From the NCBI GenBank assembly GCA_025056175.1, contig JANWWK010000029.1, forward strand, positions 1-64,000: DNA of 64,000 bases, read 5' to 3'. Within the stretch, counting starts at the first letter, position 1, and each line of letters opens with the position of its first letter. Made by a program: the position numbers and the translations under genes. Source of the DNA: Anaerolineales bacterium. GTDB lineage: Bacteria > Chloroflexota > Anaerolineae > Anaerolineales > Villigracilaceae. Of the stretch, positions 31,918 to 39,840 are shown one piece after another. The notes beneath the pieces were generated by a model. The model saw nothing but the letters and a program-made list of their open reading frames with translations, had not been told where the DNA came from and did not search any database.

Positions 31918-33399
31918 ATGAAACCCCCTGTTTACGTTCTCGGTGCTGGTATTGGCGGGCTGTCAGCCGCAATTCATCTGGCAGCACGCGGCTATGACGT
32001 GACAGTGCTGGAGCAGAATTCCACTGTCGGCGGAAAGATGTCGGAATTTCGCGCCGATGGCTTTCGTTGGGATACCGGCCCGTCTGTGATTACGATGCGC
32101 GGGGTGTTCGAGGCGTTGTTTCGTGCGGCAGGGCGGCACCTTGATGATTACCTGACGCTCTTGCCGGTAGAGCCGTTGACGCGTTATTTTTGGCCGGATG
32201 GCACGCGTTTCGACCTTTCCCGCCGTCTGCCGGAGGTGGCCGCACAAATTGCGGCGCTCGAACCGCGCGATGTCGAGGGCTATCTTCTCTTTCTGGCGGA
32301 GGCTGCTCGCTGGCATCGCATTACTGCGCCGGTATTTACGTATGGCCCGCCGCCTTCGCTGGCGAGTCTCAAGCAGGTCACTCTGCGCGATGCGTTGCGC
32401 GTGGATGTTGTTTCGACGTTGCAGCAACACATCGAACGGCGGGTTCGACATCCGTATTTACGGCAATTGCTTGGACGGTTTGCAACGTATGTCGGTGCTT
32501 CGCCTTATCTCGCGCCGGCCACGCTGGCAGTGATTGCACATGTGGAGTTGACCGAGGGGGTGTGGTATCCGCAAGGCGGCATTTATGAGATTGCCCGGGC
32601 GTATGAGCGGCTGGCACTGGAGCTGGGCGTACAAATCCGTCTCAATGCACGCGTGCGTGAAATTTGTCTGCATGGCGAGCAGGTTTCAGCGTTGATTTTG
32701 GAGAACGGGGAGGTACTTCCGGCACATACCGTTCTCTCGAATTTCGATGTTGTGACCACGTATGGGCTGATTCAAACGGAACGCGCCCGGCAGCGGCTGG
32801 CTTCGCTGATGAAGCGCGAGGTTTCCTGCTCTGGGATGGTTCTCTTGCTGGGGGTGGAAGGGAACTTTCCTGAATTGGCGCATCACAATATCTTCTTTTC
32901 TTCTGATTATCGCCGTGAATTTGCACAAATTTTTGAGCAAAAGGTGTTGCCCGATGACCCGACCCTGTATTTGTGCATTACGTCTAAGACCGACCCTGCC
33001 CATGCACCACCTGGTTGTGAAAACTGGTTTGTGATGGCCAACGCTCCCGCGCTTGGCCTGGATGCCTCTGCGGGATGGAAGGAGGAGAACCGGCAGGTGA
33101 TAGACTGGATGCTCGACCGGCTGGCGGCCATCGGCCTGGAAGTGCGTGATAAGATTCGTGTTCAGCGCCTGCTCACGCCCTTTGATATTCAAAAAACGAC
33201 CGGCGCCTGGCGGGGGGCGTTGTATGGAGTATCGTTCAATGACCGTTTTGCGCCGTTTCGGCGTCCGGGCAATCGCTCTGAATTTAAGGGCTTGTATTTT
33301 GCGGGCGGAACAACGCATCCTGGCGGGGGCGTGCCGCTGGTAACGCTTTCGGGCAAATTGGCGGCGGAATGGATTATGCGTGATTCAGTTCCCAAATGA
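31918..33399 (+). CDS. CrtI/CrtD-type carotenoid desaturase
   Basis: A 493-residue FAD enzyme. The N-terminal dinucleotide fold is VLGAGIGGLSAAIHLAARGYDVTVLEQN, followed by KMSEFRADGFRWDTGPSVITM and, at the C-terminus, GLYFAGGTTHPGGGVPLVTLSGKLAAEWI; both flanks are diagnostic for phytoene desaturase relatives. Whether it acts on phytoene, makes the 3',4' double bond (CrtD) or oxidises the end group cannot be decided by eye; association with cruF favours CrtD. The 3' end overlaps the convergent coaX gene by 26 bases. Confidence 0.86.
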   Translation: MKPPVYVLGAGIGGLSAAIHLAARGYDVTVLEQNSTVGGKMSEFRADGFRWDTGPSVITMRGVFEALFRAAGRHLDDYLTLLPVEPLTRYFWPDGTRFDLSRRLPEVAAQIAALEPRDVEGYLLFLAEAARWHRITAPVFTYGPPPSLASLKQVTLRDALRVDVVSTLQQHIERRVRHPYLRQLLGRFATYVGASPYLAPATLAVIAHVELTEGVWYPQGGIYEIARAYERLALELGVQIRLNARVREICLHGEQVSALILENGEVLPAHTVLSNFDVVTTYGLIQTERARQRLASLMKREVSCSGMVLLLGVEGNFPELAHHNIFFSSDYRREFAQIFEQKVLPDDPTLYLCITSKTDPAHAPPGCENWFVMANAPALGLDASAGWKEENRQVIDWMLDRLAAIGLEVRDKIRVQRLLTPFDIQKTTGAWRGALYGVSFNDRFAPFRRPGNRSEFKGLYFAGGTTHPGGGVPLVTLSGKLAAEWIMRDSVPK

Positions 33400-34141
33400 T
33401 ACGCAGGCCATCCAGAGTCAGCCATGGGGCGATGTGCTGGATGACGGCGGTTTCTTGGGCGATGAGTTCTGCCAGGCCGCCGGTGGCGATGACTTTCATT
33501 TGCGGGCCGAGTTCGGCGCGGAAACGTTCAACCATCCCCTCGACCATGCTGACATACCCAAAGAGTAGACCCGACTGCATGGCATGAATGGTGTTGCGTC
33601 CGATGACGCTGGGTGGACGCTGCAGTTCAATGCGCGGCAGCTTGGCGGCGCGCGTGAACAGTGCTTCGGCCGCAAGATTGACGCCGGCTGTGATAGCCCC
33701 GCCTAAGTAATCGCCTTCTCTGGTCAGAGCGTTGAAGGTGGTGGCCGTGCCGAAATCTATGATGCAGGCCGGGCCGCCAAAGTGGTGCAGCGCCGCCACC
33801 GCATCGGCTACGCGGTCGGCCCCTACAGCGCGTGGGTCGTCGTAGCGGATACGGATACCGGTTTTGATGCCGGCGTCCACGATGAGCGGGTCGCGTTGCA
33901 GGTACTCCCGGCAGGCGTGTGCAATGCGCCCGGTGAGATTCGGGACGACGGAGGCCAGGACAATTCCAGTCAGGGCGGTGGGGGCATGTCCGGCATGGGT
34001 GAGCAACCCAAGCAGCTGCAGGCCGTATTCGTCAGGCATACGTGCAGAATCGGTGGCGAGCCGCCAGTGCCAGGCCAGAGTCTGACCTTCGTACAGGCCA
34101 ATGGTCAGGTTTGTGTTGCCGAGGTCGAGGGCGAGGAGCAT
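33374..34141 (-). CDS. coaX: Type III pantothenate kinase
   Basis: A 255-residue enzyme of the first step of CoA synthesis. It is of the ASKHA fold: LALDLGNTNLTIGLYEG (phosphate 1), PRAVGADRVADAVAA (pantothenate-binding GADR), IIDFGTATTFNALTREG (phosphate 2) and LGGAITAGVNLAAEAL. Length is normal for the family. GGAGAACA precedes the ATG. Its last codons overlap the end of the carotenoid desaturase gene on the other strand. Confidence 0.96.
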   Translation of the reverse strand: MLLALDLGNTNLTIGLYEGQTLAWHWRLATDSARMPDEYGLQLLGLLTHAGHAPTALTGIVLASVVPNLTGRIAHACREYLQRDPLIVDAGIKTGIRIRYDDPRAVGADRVADAVAALHHFGGPACIIDFGTATTFNALTREGDYLGGAITAGVNLAAEALFTRAAKLPRIELQRPPSVIGRNTIHAMQSGLLFGYVSMVEGMVERFRAELGPQMKVIATGGLAELIAQETAVIQHIAPWLTLDGLRIIWELNHA

Positions 34142-34246
34142 GGTTCGTTGTTCTCCAACTCTGATGCATTGAGGAAAAAGATTATAACCGCTGTTTTTCT
34201 CTCTCGTGGCGCAGAGTCACAGGCTTCTCCTGCTGTAAGAGACAAC

Positions 34247-34273
34247 AAAAGAGCCGGGTGGGCCGGCTCTTTT
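34247..34273 (-). terminator. Bidirectional terminator after phoU
   Basis: An 11-bp perfect stem (AAAAGAGCCGG with CCGGCTCTTTT) and five-base loop lie 13 bases beyond the phoU stop, closing the phosphate operon. Confidence 0.88.
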
Positions 34274-34286
34274 TCTCGCTGGAAAG

Positions 34287-34976
34287 TTATTTCTCTGTTT
34301 TTTCTATCTCGTCGTAGGTGGAACGGGTTTCTTTATATTCTCCCGTTACGGCAAAGACGGCGCGTTCACAGATGTTGGTCACCCGGTCAGCCAGGCGCTC
34401 CAGGTTATGGGCAGCCCACAGCAGCCAGTTGGCACGCTCGATGGTGCGGGCATCGGCCATGACGTAGGTCATCAGTTCGCGGTACACCTGCTCATAGAGC
34501 ATATCTACTTCGTCGTCTTCTTCGGGGATGGCGCGAGCAGTCTCTACATCGCCGTTGACGAAGGCTGTCAGCGCGCGGTGGAGCATGTCGGTACCTTTTT
34601 GCGCCATGCGGGGAATGTCAATCAACGGTTTGAGCAGGGGTTGTTCTCCCATGCGGATGTTGATGACAGCGATGCCTTTGGCGTAATCGCCCATGCGCTC
34701 CAGTTCGCTGATGACTTCGAGAATGGAAGCAATCATGCGCAAATCGCGCGCCATGGGCTGTTGGGTGGCAATCAGAATCATCACTTTGTTTTCCAGCTCG
34801 AAGCGCTTTTCGTTGATTTTCTTATCGGCGGCGATGATTTGCTCTGACCAGCGCATATCACGCTTTTTGAGCGCTTCGACGGCGTCGAGCGTGGCCTGTT
34901 CGACCATACTGCCCAGCAACAGGATTTCATCTTTGAGTTGCTGGATTTCCTGTTCAAACGTTTTGCGAATTGCCAT
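34287..34976 (-). CDS. phoU: Phosphate regulatory protein PhoU
   Basis: A 229-residue all-helical protein with two PhoU repeats. The motifs LLLGSMVEQATLDAVEALKKRD and ELERMGDYAKGIA (first repeat), and WAAHNLERLADRVTNICERAVFAVTGE (second repeat), bind metal and link PstB to the PhoR kinase. It is the last gene of the pst operon, after an ArsC-like gene, and is followed by a strong terminator. A TACAAT box just upstream could give extra internal transcription. Confidence 0.95.
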   Translation of the reverse strand: MAIRKTFEQEIQQLKDEILLLGSMVEQATLDAVEALKKRDMRWSEQIIAADKKINEKRFELENKVMILIATQQPMARDLRMIASILEVISELERMGDYAKGIAVINIRMGEQPLLKPLIDIPRMAQKGTDMLHRALTAFVNGDVETARAIPEEDDEVDMLYEQVYRELMTYVMADARTIERANWLLWAAHNLERLADRVTNICERAVFAVTGEYKETRSTYDEIEKTEK

Positions 34977-35009
34977 AGGAGCCTTCTTTCCTGTTTTGGA
35001 GAGATTGTA

Positions 35010-35462
35010 TCAGATTTTCAGGTCGGCAGGCTGAATTCCTTGCTCCAGCAGCCAGGAACGGATTTTCTCGGCCATCGCATCACGGATTTGGCGCGTCTGC
35101 GCGAGAATTTCCTCTTCAGAACCGCTCAGCGCGGCAGGGTCATCAAACGGCCAGAACATGTGCTTGCCCATGCTCAGGAAGATGCGCGGGCATTTTTCTT
35201 CTGCGCCTCCGCAGACGGTGACGGTATAAGCGAAGTTGAACTTACCCAGGTATTCGTTGACGCTTTTCGAGTATTGACCTTCCATATTCAGGCCGATTTC
35301 GGCCATGACCCGGCGCACGACCGGCAAGATTTCGCCTTTTGGCTCCAGGCCGGCGCTATACACATCAAAATGCTCGCCCGCATACGCACGCAGAAATGCT
35401 TCGCCCATCTGGCTGCGGGCCGAATTGCCGGTGCAAAGGAAGAGGAATTTGGGTTTGCTCAT
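35010..35462 (-). CDS. ArsC-like arsenate reductase / low-molecular-weight phosphatase family protein
   Basis: A 150-residue protein with the phosphatase loop CTGNSARS (Cys10) near the N-terminus, the family helix that follows, SAGLEPKGEILP, and the C-terminal FDDPA loop carrying the general acid Asp. A second Cys pair (TVTVCGGAEEKCP) matches the resolving cysteines of thioredoxin-linked arsenate reductases. It lies two bases after pstB and before phoU, so phosphate starvation should co-induce it. That makes sense, because Pst can import arsenate under those conditions. Confidence 0.85.
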   Translation of the reverse strand: MSKPKFLFLCTGNSARSQMGEAFLRAYAGEHFDVYSAGLEPKGEILPVVRRVMAEIGLNMEGQYSKSVNEYLGKFNFAYTVTVCGGAEEKCPRIFLSMGKHMFWPFDDPAALSGSEEEILAQTRQIRDAMAEKIRSWLLEQGIQPADLKI

Positions 35463-35464
35463 GA

Positions 35465-36247
35465 TTAGCCGAACCTTCCGGTGACGTAGTCTTCCGTCCG
35501 TTTGTCTTTGGGACGGGTGAAGATGATTTCGGTCTTATCGTATTCGATGACCGTGCCGGAACGGGTATCTTCGTAGAGCATCATCATGGCCGTATAATCC
35601 GAAACACGTGCGGCCTGTTGCATGTTGTGGGTGACGATGATGATGGTGTAGTTTTTCTTGAGTTCCTGCATCAGCTCTTCGATGCGCAGGGTGGAAATGG
35701 GGTCGAGCGCGGAAGCAGGTTCGTCCATAAGGATGATTTCCGGCTGGACAGCAATGGCGCGCGCAATGCACAGGCGTTGCTGTTGACCGCCAGAGAGGGC
35801 ATAAGCGCTTTGTTTGAGTTTGTCTTTCACTTCGTCCCACAGGGCGGCGCCGCGCAGAGATTGCTCCACCAGGTCATCCATATTTCCTTTGTAGCCGTTG
35901 ATACGTGCGCCCCAGGCAATGTTTTCATAAATGGACTTGGGAAAAGGATTGGGTTTTTGAAAGACCATGCCGATTTTGCGGCGCACTTCCACCGGGTCAA
36001 TTTCTTTGCCGTACAGGTTGGTGCCGTGCAGCAGGATTTCGCCTTTGACGTGGCTGGAAGGGACAAAATCGTTCATGCGGTTGAAGGCGCGTAACAGAGT
36101 GCTTTTTCCGCATCCCGAAGGGCCGATGATGGCGGTAATGCGCTGTTTTTCGATTTGCAGGTTGACATTTTTGACGGCTTCAAAATTGCCGTAGAAGATG
36201 CTGAGGTTGCGGGTTTCGATGGCGTATTGAGAATTTTCAGGCAACAT
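35465..36247 (-). CDS. pstB: Phosphate ABC transporter ATP-binding protein PstB
   Basis: A 260-residue ATPase with Walker [20 protein letters not shown], the Q-loop [19 protein letters not shown], signature [14 protein letters not shown] and Walker [13 protein letters not shown]. The NRMND and [11 protein letters not shown] segments are specific for PstB. It is fourth of the pstSCAB set and directly precedes the ArsC-like gene. Confidence 0.97.
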
Positions 36248-36268: not shown

Positions 36269-37504
36269 CTACCAGCGTCGCTGGAAGCGGTTGCGGAGAA
36301 TGATGGCCGTTGCGTTGAGCATGAGCAGAATACCCGCCAGAACCAGAATCCCCGCCGCGGCAATGGCGTGAAACTCACCTTGCGCACGCGAAGTCCATTG
36401 ATAAATCTGGATGGGCAGGGCGGTGAATTTGGTAAACGGGCTGTTGGGGTCGAATGTGATGAAGGTTGACGCGCCTACGATGATGAGCGGGGCGGTTTCG
36501 CCGATAGCGCGTGACATCGCCAGGATGCTGCCGGTGAGAATGCCGGGCAATGCCGCAGGTAGAACGTGGTGCCACACCATCTGCCAACGGGTAGCGCCTA
36601 CGCCGTAGGCCGCCTGTCGGATGGAGTCTGGAACGGCTTTAATGGCTTCTTGCGCGTTGATGATGACCAGCGGCAGGACGAGAATCCCCATCGTCAGCCC
36701 GGCGGAAAGCACGGTGCGGCCGTTCGAGTCGGTTACGCCGAACATGGCACCACTGGTCAGCGGCTCAAAGGTACGGACGAAAATTGCCAGGCCCAGCATG
36801 CCGTACACAATCGAAGGCACGCCTGCCAGGTTGTTAATGTTGGTTTGGATGATGCGCGCTACGATGTTGGTTTTGCTGGCGTATTCTTGCAAGTATACGG
36901 CAGCGCCTACGCCGGTGGGCATAGAAACCAGCATGGCAATTGCGACAATCCACAGCGACCCAAAAATGGCCGTGCGCACGCCGGCGAATTCGGCGCGACT
37001 CGATTGCGGCGTGACCAGGAATCTGGGGGTCAACCAGGCGCGGAATTCCAGTTTCGCATCGGGGTAGAGTTCCTTGACTTCCGCTTCGATGCCTGCCCGG
37101 TCGGTGAGAGAGCGCCACAGGGTGTAGGTTTGCCGGGTTTTGATTTGGAGAATTCGCTCAACCACCAGGTTGAATAATTCATCACGGGAGCGGGTTTCCA
37201 TTGGTTTTTCGTTGTTCAGTTTGTTGTACGCTCCACGTGAGAGGTTGCTTTGTAAAATGGCAAGCAGTTCTTCTTGCGTCAGTTCTTCCAGCGGTTTTTC
37301 GGAAAGCTGGGCAGGGTCTTTTTTGTATTCGTAAGCCACATACCCAAAGGCATCATCAATCACGCTCAAAAAGAGCGCCGAGAGCGAGATAATCGCAATC
37401 AACAGGGCGGAAAAGAATACCATTTCCCACACCCAGGCTTTGCGATACCGCCAGGCGATGAAGCGTTCCAGGTCGTTTTGTTCAGGGTAAGAGAAGCGGG
37501 CCAT
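36269..37504 (-). CDS. pstA: Phosphate ABC transporter permease PstA with an enlarged first loop
   Basis: A 411-residue permease, about 110 residues longer than the usual PstA. Helix 1 lies at about 27-50. An inserted soluble region at about 55-165 (KPLEELTQEELLAILQSN, RSRDELFNLVVERILQ) precedes the five helices of the permease domain. The coupling loop PDSIRQAAYGVGATRWQMVWHHVLPAALPGI is present. The insert would face the outside and could contact PstS. The gene starts 11 bases after pstC. Confidence 0.93.
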   Translation of the reverse strand: MARFSYPEQNDLERFIAWRYRKAWVWEMVFFSALLIAIISLSALFLSVIDDAFGYVAYEYKKDPAQLSEKPLEELTQEELLAILQSNLSRGAYNKLNNEKPMETRSRDELFNLVVERILQIKTRQTYTLWRSLTDRAGIEAEVKELYPDAKLEFRAWLTPRFLVTPQSSRAEFAGVRTAIFGSLWIVAIAMLVSMPTGVGAAVYLQEYASKTNIVARIIQTNINNLAGVPSIVYGMLGLAIFVRTFEPLTSGAMFGVTDSNGRTVLSAGLTMGILVLPLVIINAQEAIKAVPDSIRQAAYGVGATRWQMVWHHVLPAALPGILTGSILAMSRAIGETAPLIIVGASTFITFDPNSPFTKFTALPIQIYQWTSRAQGEFHAIAAAGILVLAGILLMLNATAIILRNRFQRRW

Positions 37505-37514
37505 GGCGTTTCCT

Positions 37515-38477
37515 TTACTCGTATTGCTCGCGGAATTTGGCGATAATCCATTGGCTGATGAGGTTCAGGATGAGGGTGATGAGGAAGAGCATGAGCGCAA
37601 TGGCAAACAGGCTGGTGTAGTCGAGCGTGCCATAGGGCAGGTCTCCGCCGCTGATTCGGGCGATGTGACCGGTCATTGTTTCGGCGGAATCCAGAGGGTT
37701 GAAGGTAAACTTCGGTCCGGCGCCCGATGCAATGGCTACAATCATCGTTTCCCCAACCGCGCGGGCAATCCCCACGATAACCGCAGCGCCGATACCGGAA
37801 AAGGCCGCTGGTACGAGAACTTGCGTGCTGACCTCCAGCCTGGTGGCACCCATTGCGTATGCCCCTTCGCGCAGAGAATTGGGGACGGCACTGAGCGCAT
37901 CTTCGCTCATCGAAGAAATCAACGGCAAAATCATGATGCCCATCACCAGACCGGCAGAGAGCATGTTATAGACGCCGAGTTTGTCTGTGCCGATGAGGCT
38001 GCGCAGCAGGGGCGAGACGAACAACAGAGCAAAGTAGCCATAAACAACGGTGGGGATGCCGGCCAATGTTTCCAGGACTGGCTTCAGGATGGCACGGGCG
38101 CGTGGGTTGGCATATTCGCTCAGGTAGATGGCTGCGCTCAATCCCAGCGGCAGGGCAACCGAAATCGCAATTGCGCTGGTGGTGAGCGTTGCGCTGACCA
38201 ATGCCCAAATGCCGAATTGTTCTGCTTGCGGTTGCCAGGAAGTGGTCAGGAAGAATTCCTGCAAACTCACTTCCGGGTCGGCAAAGAACAGGAGTGCCTG
38301 GTCGCCCAGTACGAAAGTGATGGCGAGCGTGATGAAGATGGTCAAAATTCCTACGATGAAAAGAGAACTTTCGACCATCACCTCGCCAGGTCGCAATTTT
38401 CGCTTGAGTTGTGCTGCCCAACTTTCTTGTTGCAGAGAAGTAGAAAGGTCAAGGTCGGAAGAGATTGGCGTTGTCAT
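37515..38477 (-). CDS. pstC: Phosphate ABC transporter permease PstC
   Basis: A 320-residue permease with six helices. The coupling loop VPNSLREGAYAMGATRLEVSTQVLVPAAFSGI and the GDQALLFFADPEVSLQEFFLTTSW segment after helix 1 are typical of PstC. The frame is open from TTG 38498, but ATG 38477 with GAAAGA upstream is preferred. It is separated from pstS by a strongly structured RNA segment of about 110 bases. Confidence 0.94.
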   Translation of the reverse strand: MTTPISSDLDLSTSLQQESWAAQLKRKLRPGEVMVESSLFIVGILTIFITLAITFVLGDQALLFFADPEVSLQEFFLTTSWQPQAEQFGIWALVSATLTTSAIAISVALPLGLSAAIYLSEYANPRARAILKPVLETLAGIPTVVYGYFALLFVSPLLRSLIGTDKLGVYNMLSAGLVMGIMILPLISSMSEDALSAVPNSLREGAYAMGATRLEVSTQVLVPAAFSGIGAAVIVGIARAVGETMIVAIASGAGPKFTFNPLDSAETMTGHIARISGGDLPYGTLDYTSLFAIALMLFLITLILNLISQWIIAKFREQYE

Positions 38478-38503
38478 AAGATGCAATCTTTCAAACAAGA
38501 GCG

Positions 38504-38611
38504 CAAAATACTTTCTTCTTTCCCCATTTCAATAAAAGAAGAAAGTATTTTGCTCAGCGAGCAAGGTTTGGGCTGGCCCTCCTGCAGAAGGGCCAGCCCG
38601 CTGAAATGGGG
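38504..38611 (-). promoter_or_regulatory. Structured RNA between pstS and pstC (two hairpins with a loop-to-flank pairing)
   Basis: Plus-strand coordinates: an 18-bp perfect stem pairs 38504-38521 with 38535-38552. Its 13-base loop contains CCCCATTTCA (38522-38531), the exact complement of TGAAATGGGG at 38602-38611. Between them lies an 11-bp perfect GC-rich hairpin (38570-38580 with 38589-38599). The loop pairing would close a pseudoknot or kissing structure. There is no U-run after either hairpin, so it looks like a processing or stability element rather than a simple terminator. Confidence 0.7.
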
Positions 38612-38619
38612 GAGAGTGT

Positions 38620-39726
38620 TTACGGATTCAGCATGGCGGAGAGCCAGGCGCCCCAGGAGGTGTAGATGGCTTTCTTGGGGGCGGGGAAGTAACCGACGTC
38701 TTTGATGTTGTCATCCAGGTTTTGCAGGTAGAAGGCGATGAAAGCGGCAACCTGCGGTTTTTGCTGCATGATTTTGGCATCGGAGTAGATGAAGAGCGGA
38801 CGTGCGAGCGGATAGGTGCCGTTATCTACGTTGGCCTGGGTGGGTTCAACGTCGTTGATTTTGACGGCTTTGAGTTTGCCCTGTTCTTCGGCGAAGTAAG
38901 CATAGCCGAAGTAACCGATGGCGTACTTGTCGCCTTCGACGCCCTTGACGAGGACGTTGTCATCTTCGGAGAATTGTGCGCCTTCGAGGGCGAGCAGGGC
39001 GCTCTTGGCGGCTTTGGTGTCGTCTTTGCCTTCGGGGGTCTTGAACTGCTTGGCAACGACGGCTTCGATGAAGTAGTCGAAGGTGCCGGAGTCAGCGCCG
39101 GGGGAGTAGACCTTGATGGTTTCGGCGGGGAAGGCGGGGTCTACTTCGTTCCACTTCTTGACCTGACCGGAGAAGATTTTGCCGAGTTGGTCAATGGTGA
39201 GGGTGGTGAGGAAGTCGTTATCCTGCGAGACGACGACGGCCAGGGCATCGGTGCCAACGCGGAATTCAAGCGGGTTGCGGCCAATGGCTTTGCAGTTTTC
39301 GGCTTCTTCTTTCTTGATGGCGCGCGAAGCGTTGGAGATGTCGGTTTCGCCGGTCTTGCAGAAGCGCTCAAAGCCAGCGCCGGTGCCGATGCTATCCACG
39401 GTGATGTTGCCGGTGTAGCCTTCCTGCTGGAAGAGTTCGGCCATGCGCTCAGAGAGCGGGAAGACGGTCGAAGAACCAGCGGTGATGATGTCACCCGTCA
39501 CTTCATCGGGCTGCGGGATGACCGGCAGAACGATGGGGAGGATGACTTCGGTCGGCGTGGGCGCCGGAGTAGCGGTCGCTTCCGGCGCTTTGGTTGGCTC
39601 GGGGGCCTTGGTGTTGGTGGCCGCGGGCGCAGCGGGGGCGGCGGTGGGCGTCGCCTGGCCGCAGGCCGCCAGAATCATGCTGGCGGCAATGAGCGCGGCA
39701 AAAAGGGTGAACAGTTTGTTGCGCAT
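38620..39726 (-). CDS. pstS: Phosphate-binding lipoprotein PstS
   Basis: A 368-residue phosphate-binding protein of the ABC importer. The signal peptide ends in lipobox LAAC (Cys19). A Pro/Ala/Thr-rich linker of about 45 residues precedes the PBP-like domain with DIITAGSSTVFPLSERMAELF (phosphate loop), ISNASRAIKKEE and YSPGADSGTFDYF. ATG 39726 with AGGAGA upstream is chosen over the longer frame because it gives the signal peptide. An 11-bp-periodic PhoP-like box lies 69-107 bases upstream. Confidence 0.96.
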   Translation of the reverse strand: MRNKLFTLFAALIAASMILAACGQATPTAAPAAPAATNTKAPEPTKAPEATATPAPTPTEVILPIVLPVIPQPDEVTGDIITAGSSTVFPLSERMAELFQQEGYTGNITVDSIGTGAGFERFCKTGETDISNASRAIKKEEAENCKAIGRNPLEFRVGTDALAVVVSQDNDFLTTLTIDQLGKIFSGQVKKWNEVDPAFPAETIKVYSPGADSGTFDYFIEAVVAKQFKTPEGKDDTKAAKSALLALEGAQFSEDDNVLVKGVEGDKYAIGYFGYAYFAEEQGKLKAVKINDVEPTQANVDNGTYPLARPLFIYSDAKIMQQKPQVAAFIAFYLQNLDDNIKDVGYFPAPKKAIYTSWGAWLSAMLNP

Positions 39727-39794: not shown

Positions 39795-39833
39795 CGTTAA
39801 GGACAATGAAAAGTTTGTTTAACGTCTCGTTAA
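39795..39833 (-). promoter_or_regulatory. PhoP/PhoB-like box upstream of pstS
   Basis: Reading the minus strand, hexamers TTAACG, TTAAAC, TTTCAT and TTAACG follow each other with exact 11-bp spacing. This is the pattern of the Gram-positive PhoP box (TTAACA-like direct repeats). A GAAAAT that could serve as -10 follows nine bases later. The phoB-phoR pair is encoded 1-3 kb upstream. Confidence 0.72.
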
Positions 39834-39840
39834 GAAGCGT

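Follow-up and report, generated by a model that had tools for sequence, protein, structure and literature searches.

The 64,000-nucleotide stretch of DNA analysed here (the window) carries a pst operon whose genes lie on the minus strand in the order pstS, pstC, pstA and pstB, so that the transcript reads as the plus strand's reverse complement. The first gene, pstS (38620-39726), encodes a phosphate-binding lipoprotein (PF12849); its start at 39726 was placed by eye from an AGGAG ahead of it, and the open reading frame from 39741 was used in the computations. It is followed by two permease genes, pstC (37515-38480) and pstA (36269-37504; both PF00528), and by the ATPase gene pstB (35465-36247; PF00005). 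Upstream of the pst genes, domain searches gave a response regulator gene and a histidine kinase gene, which by their position are PhoB- and PhoR-like. Three further genes stand in a row 3' of pstB (33374-35462, minus strand), which from their sequence we take to be arsenate-reductase/low-mass phosphatase-like, phoU-like and coaX-like. Upstream of pstS, at 39795-39835 on the minus strand, there are repeated TTAAC-like words that resemble PhoP/PhoB boxes. RNase III and PNPase are both encoded in the genome.

The pstS stop and the pstC start are separated by 139 nt, and all features described in this gap are on the minus strand. The 5' strand of a long-range (pseudoknot) helix, CCCCATTTCA (= CCCCAUUUCA; 38602-38611), starts 8 nt past the pstS stop. 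Two nucleotides after this strand begins a GC hairpin (38570-38599), a perfect 11-bp stem (arms 38570-38580 and 38589-38599) with the loop UCUGCAGG. A variable linker of 16 nt (38554-38569) separates it from an AT-rich hairpin, a perfect 19-bp stem (38503-38553; arms 38503-38521 and 38535-38553) that ends 22 nt before the pstC start. The 13-nt loop of the AT hairpin (38522-38534) reads UAUUGAAAUGGGG, contains TGAAATGGGG and holds the second strand of the long-range helix, UGAAAUGGGG (38522-38531), which is complementary to 38602-38611 over all 10 nt, with 70 nt lying between the two strands. An earlier note on this DNA had described a 13-nt loop with an exact 10-nt complement about 70 nt away and a perfect 11-bp hairpin in between, and both were borne out when the sequence was checked by script. 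The stem carrying this loop is perfect, as the note had it, but re-derivation of the coordinates gave 19 bp instead of 18 bp.

The structure of the gap exceeds chance. On the operon strand the gap folded with -61.5 kcal/mol (z -6.9), and none of 200 shuffles was as good. When the 69 nt upstream were shuffled, keeping dinucleotides and the loop, a loop complement of at least 10 nt arose in 3 of 20,000 shuffles. The window was also scanned by script for perfect stems of at least 12 bp closing a loop of 8-20 nt that has a complement of at least 9 nt within 150 nt; this hairpin alone was returned. The gap matched no Rfam 15 family at the gathering cut-off, the sub-threshold matches (E up to 1) being RF02445 (27.2 of 50 bits) and RF04343 (23.9 of 55.8 bits). 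Over the whole window only an FMN riboswitch (RF00050; 12692-12840, plus strand) was found at cut-off, scoring 73 bits, above its gathering score. A REP- or MITE-like dispersed repeat was rejected, as the element is single-copy and, apart from itself and its own inverted arms, its matches in the own genome had E values of 3.45 or worse.

Distribution of the layout among relatives

The pstS-pstC gaps of relatives were collected, giving 95 gaps, 92 of them distinct and the window locus included. Left out were L020, L034 and L036 (stretch without pstS), L046 (no gap), L039 and L212 (duplicates) and L233 and L234 (pstC beyond the stretch). The layout is present in the pstS-pstC gap of four genomes, G000 (the window), G003 (L011), G022 (L010) and G117 (L190), corresponding to 4 of 152 family genomes and three genera. 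In L010 and L011 it was recognised on reading the gaps; a covariance model built from the window and L011 found L010 again and revealed L190, likewise in a pstS-pstC gap. Across the four carriers, the 5' knot strand lies 8-10 nt past the pstS stop and the loop strand 38-45 nt from the pstC start. Their GC-hairpin loop UCUGCAGG (38581-38588) is the same in the window, L010, L011 and L190; this word is self-complementary and could serve loop-loop contacts between two mRNAs. CTGCAG occurs in one of 91 non-carrier gaps, elsewhere in that gap.

A model built from all four carriers returned only these four at E < 1e-25 among the 152 family genomes, together with weak matches in 14 other genomes (E 4.5e-5 to 0.1). 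On a 400-genome sample of the order it returned the same four and five weak matches. Both model searches ran with Infernal's stricter filters, which may lose weak relatives. The weak matches in G069 and G127 are plain hairpins in pst gaps, and an AT hairpin with a complementary loop was absent from the other 91 gaps examined. A script applied to 72 gaps found an exact complement of at least 9 nt between upstream and downstream parts only in L190, L010 and L185, and 14 of 3,600 shuffles reached 9 nt; the script chose the AT hairpin as the main one in the window and L011 and missed both, which were paired in a separate comparison. L185 was rejected as an instance of the same architecture, its complementary strands forming the helix that closes a nested fold. 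At 49 places in 39 of 152 family genomes the exact 13-mer TGAAATGGGGAAA is present (reversed control, 9 genomes), and among the 30 of these 49 places examined, CCCATTTC lies within 150 nt before it only at three pst-gap places. In a sample of 396 class genomes, which gave no row for G003, G022 and G117, the two-strand pattern matched the own genome and one whose fetched stretch lacks pstS and pstC; the control pattern also matched one genome. Searched against Rfam, L010, L011, L190 and L014 gave a single match, below cut-off and outside the gap. A mobile repeat with inverted ends was rejected as well, given the single copy, the fixed pst place in all four carriers and the GC-type hairpins found there in most relatives.

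In a tree of 76 PstC proteins, the carriers fall within a supported clade of 15 (98/86), alongside 11 non-carriers. The window and L010 are sisters, L190 is placed among genomes without the element, and the distribution requires at least two changes. Such scatter implies that the element is either old in the clade and repeatedly lost, or exchanged. Close relatives without it exist, with PstC up to 89% identical to that of a carrier, and 13 of 95 gaps are shorter than 45 nt, too short to hold it; hence the element is dispensable. L014, which is placed near L011, still shows where the second hairpin begins; its loop region has TCTGAAACGG, and the upstream strand has been lost. Both pairing sides look decayed in this single, loosely aligned case. 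TCTGAAACGG is also found, again as a single case, in the gap of L012. A sequence similar to the 3' half of the L011 hairpin, TGAAATGGGGAAAAGAAGAAAGCGTTT, occurs in L122 (G026, contig 11), where the fetched stretch lacks pstS and pstC, and is possibly a relic or due to chance. Two tandem copies of pstS, or parts of two, precede pstC in L010, L014, L016, L040 and L209.

Conservation and pair changes in the three helices

Four-fold degenerate sites of pstC are 28, 35, 35, 38, 45 and 45% identical between the carriers, which was taken as near saturation. The four carriers were aligned so as to fit the two hairpins. Standard pairs filled 95.6% of the 160 pair cells of this alignment and 11 pairs had double changes, while slid partners were 40-62% paired. 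Four of five pairing measures were reached by none of 500 shuffles and the fifth, the number of pair types, by 81, with the caveat that related sequences without structure can also beat such shuffles. In the GC hairpin three pairs were changed on both sides and none was broken. In the AT hairpin eight pairs were changed on both sides, with 90.8% of cells paired. The pairing strands had 18 invariant columns out of 20; the GC stem had 16 out of 22, the AT stem 13 out of 38 and the linker 4 out of 23. By this alignment, the sequence of the AT stem drifts while its pairing stays. G-U and A-C combinations stood at 5 to 2 in the four carriers, too small a count to carry weight.

The long-range helix comprises ten pairs, G-U allowed, in all four carriers, with CCCATTTCA in the 5' strand and TGAAATGGG in the loop strand the same in each; in the window, the invariant CCCAUUUCA lies 9 nt past the pstS stop. 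Nine pairs are invariant, and the sole varying pair, at one end, is C-G, U-G, U-G and U-A. Counted against the commonest pair, U-G, the helix has no double changes; the window and L190 differ on both sides (C-G versus U-A). The varying end pair favours the long-range helix in a supportive manner, short of proof. As far as the aligned sequences go, the evidence for this third helix is mostly conserved complementarity and not covariation. The earlier note had asked for covariation in all three helices: compensatory changes were indeed found in both hairpins, whereas nine of ten long-range pairs never vary. Its proposal of a pseudoknotted RNA element is supported in that all three helices are kept in four genomes. 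The RNA of the gap probably folds into a knotted shape that is kept in at least four genomes.

Since nine of the ten long-range pairs are invariant, constraint by a protein or another RNA fits about as well. A serious, if unlikely, alternative is that the two copies of TGAAATGGG are inverted sites, bound as DNA or as single-stranded RNA by a regulatory protein or by a small RNA, and that their pairing is a by-product. Near-invariance of both strands while pairs elsewhere drift would agree with this, as would the related TCTGAAACGG in the L012 and L014 gaps, where no partner strand is visible; however, one copy always lies in a hairpin loop with the stem rebuilt around it, and the change on both sides of the end pair between the window and L190, like the apparent degradation of both sides in the loosely aligned L014, also counts against it. 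The half-sites would be 70-78 nt apart, which is an unusual spacing. Furthermore, the window contains no other exact TGAAATGGGG, and the 204 nt upstream of pstS contain neither TGAAATGG nor CCATTTCA.

Hairpins after pstS in the wider family

Gaps of 45-420 nt could be scored (80 of 95; 13 were shorter and 2 longer), and 78 of these 80 contain a strong hairpin, at a median of 20 nt past the stop. For the window and L011, the script used for the 95 gaps takes the AT hairpin as the main one. Over the 78 hairpins, the operon strand had 60 G-U against 27 A-C (p 0.0005), a bias to be expected where this strand pairs as RNA. The GC hairpin of the window is followed by AAACCUUG, which is no U tract, and no consecutive U run follows either hairpin. 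The tail of the AT hairpin, GCUCUUGUUUG, passes as T-rich only under a loose rule that asks for 5 or more T in 8, and is not common to the three homologues; by the same rule such a tail follows 22 of 78 main hairpins of relatives. A terminator scan gave one weak 6-bp site within the gap (38564-38550, minus strand). A Rho-independent terminator was rejected because the GC hairpin has no directly following U run, in agreement with the earlier note, which had held that this is not an ordinary terminator. The gap shares two marks of a malEF-type protective hairpin, a stable intercistronic hairpin 3' of pstS and the lack of a U tract. TGCTGTA is found soon after the GC hairpin in 16 of 95 gaps (for example L152, L178 and L211) and TATAAT in 7 of 95, L011 included; in other lineages these words may belong to a pstC promoter within the operon or signal processing of the RNA.

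With a strong hairpin near universal in the scorable gaps, and a second hairpin with complementary loop absent from the other 91 gaps examined, the GC hairpin alone might matter, the AT hairpin and its complementary loop being passive or relict and simply inherited. We consider this distinctly unlikely. Inheritance alone can hardly account for the 18 invariant columns and the 11 pairs changed on both sides, because four-fold sites between the carriers are only 28-45% identical.

Putative function and comparison with known systems

We propose, with a probability of roughly one half, that the gap encodes a structured intercistronic RNA of pstSCAB in which a clade-specific knot hardens the 3' boundary of pstS and tunes pstCAB. 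The knot would most likely be a lineage-specific addition to an ordinary hairpin that gives an excess of PstS over the membrane pump. Binding proteins are needed in excess of their membrane partners, and intercistronic RNA structure often supplies this. The GC hairpin after the pstS stop would be the ordinary part, marking the 3' boundary of the stable pstS message: after cleavage downstream, 3'-to-5' exonucleases would halt at it, yielding more PstS than PstC, PstA and PstB. One clade of Anaerolineales has a second hairpin between this boundary and pstC, and its loop is predicted to pair with the strand before the GC hairpin. By joining both ends of the gap, the knot could present a stronger block to exonucleases and to run-through by ribosomes or polymerase, and RNase III, for example, might process the RNA within the long AU-rich stem. 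The analysis establishes how the helices are conserved, where they lie and in which lineage they occur; that the knot forms, acts on decay or read-through and sets the ratio of PstS to PstCAB is what we infer. Protection of the pstS mRNA by the gap structure is plausible by analogy with described operons (PMC2605767, PMC5927463).

The order of synthesis bears on how such a knot might close. The loop strand would be made ahead of the 3' arm of its own hairpin, and consequently the long-range helix should form first, the arm then closing the pseudoknot. In best folds of the growing transcript, the long-range helix was present in all four carriers when the loop strand had just been made; 11 nt later it was still present in three of four, L010 losing it after 5 nt. 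In all four, the best knot-free fold at full length had both hairpins but lacked the long-range helix. Taken separately, the window energies are about -14.8 kcal/mol for the long-range duplex, -23.7 kcal/mol for the AT hairpin and -27.8 kcal/mol for the GC hairpin. By rough geometry, a helix of 9-10 bp within a loop of 10-13 nt is tight; a crude A-form estimate calls for a connector of about 10 angstrom beyond the closing pair, which 1-3 nt could supply.

The invariant 5' knot strand lies 8-10 nt past the pstS stop in all four carriers, a position inside the footprint of a terminating ribosome. This led us to consider a translation-gated latch, in which terminating ribosomes on pstS control the knot and thereby the output of pstCAB, a possibility we regard as a long shot. 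Ribosomes finishing PstS would cover the strand and prevent the knot, and polymerase or ribosomes would continue to pstC; without such ribosomes the knot would close, and pstCAB would be shut off or the mRNA cut. If true, the operon would sense the synthesis of PstS and set the output of the transporter through an RNA knot between genes. Control of this type was not found described for any pst operon in the literature searched.

An attenuator or riboswitch-like device, in which a ligand or protein decides whether the long-range helix or the AT hairpin forms and so controls pstCAB, is very improbable: the two folds do compete, and the long-range helix is favoured at first by the order in which the strands are made, but there is no U-tract terminator, no sequestered start site was seen, with the loop strand 38-45 nt from the pstC start, and no Rfam family was found at cut-off. 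Least credible is an internal pstCAB promoter with the loop TTGAAA as -35 and TATTTT, 16 bp on, as -10, to which a scan match (38532-38505, minus strand) and the TATAAT words of the seven gaps, that of L011 among them, might point, since the match is weak (9/12), L190 has GTGAAA, losing the TTG, with no good -10 at that spacing by eye, and the 5' copy and the stem are left unexplained.

The earlier note knew of no described element with this layout; none was found at cut-off in Rfam 15 or in the literature among the matches listed, although the simpler part, a strong hairpin that follows pstS, is widespread and has been described. A search of open-licence literature listed no paper on a pst pseudoknot among the matches shown, and the available sections of PMC2704228, PMC10319736, PMC12096830 and PMC2864571 mention none. 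A scan table in the portion seen of PMC2704228 includes the Pelagibacter pstC-pstS gap, with no motif named for that gap. On the best reading, what would be new here is the proposed pseudoknot elaboration, whereas the strong hairpin 3' of pstS is generic and known in other bacteria. Should a conserved pseudoknot fill such a role, or add control to it, this kind of RNA device would gain a new form, in a phylum that has been little studied; the four natural variants offer material for comparing mRNA protection by a knot and by a hairpin.

In architecture, the nearest class is that of H-type pseudoknots with an inserted hairpin, which have two interleaved helices and a hairpin inside one loop. 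The predicted element shares both features. It differs in that its second stem is very long (19 bp), in that there is no connector 3' of the loop strand, and in having no Rfam family at cut-off.

In function, the available part of PMC5927463 treats programmed differential decay as a general pattern in E. coli operons, with 26 of 34 stabilised 5' genes ending just past a hairpin without a U tract. The structured 5' ends of the papA type named there are similar in that a hairpin ahead of a downstream gene could protect the 5' end of that gene; here, in contrast, the downstream gene is expected to be less expressed. In malE-malF, too, the gene for the binding protein comes first and is followed by a 3'-boundary hairpin without a U tract (PMC5927463); the present gap differs in its added second hairpin and predicted long-range helix. 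The same gap, with a strong hairpin after pstS, is described for E. coli, B. subtilis and S. lividans in the sections consulted of PMC2605767. According to these, the palindromes between pstS and pstC of E. coli and B. subtilis can stabilise the pstS RNA, and in S. lividans, where the pstS transcript exceeds the downstream one, the strong stem-loop is a possible terminator; such excess of pstS transcript is credited to stabilisation or partial termination. As described in those sections, the known pst gaps contain hairpins only, whereas in the four carriers a loop is predicted to pair with the strand upstream.
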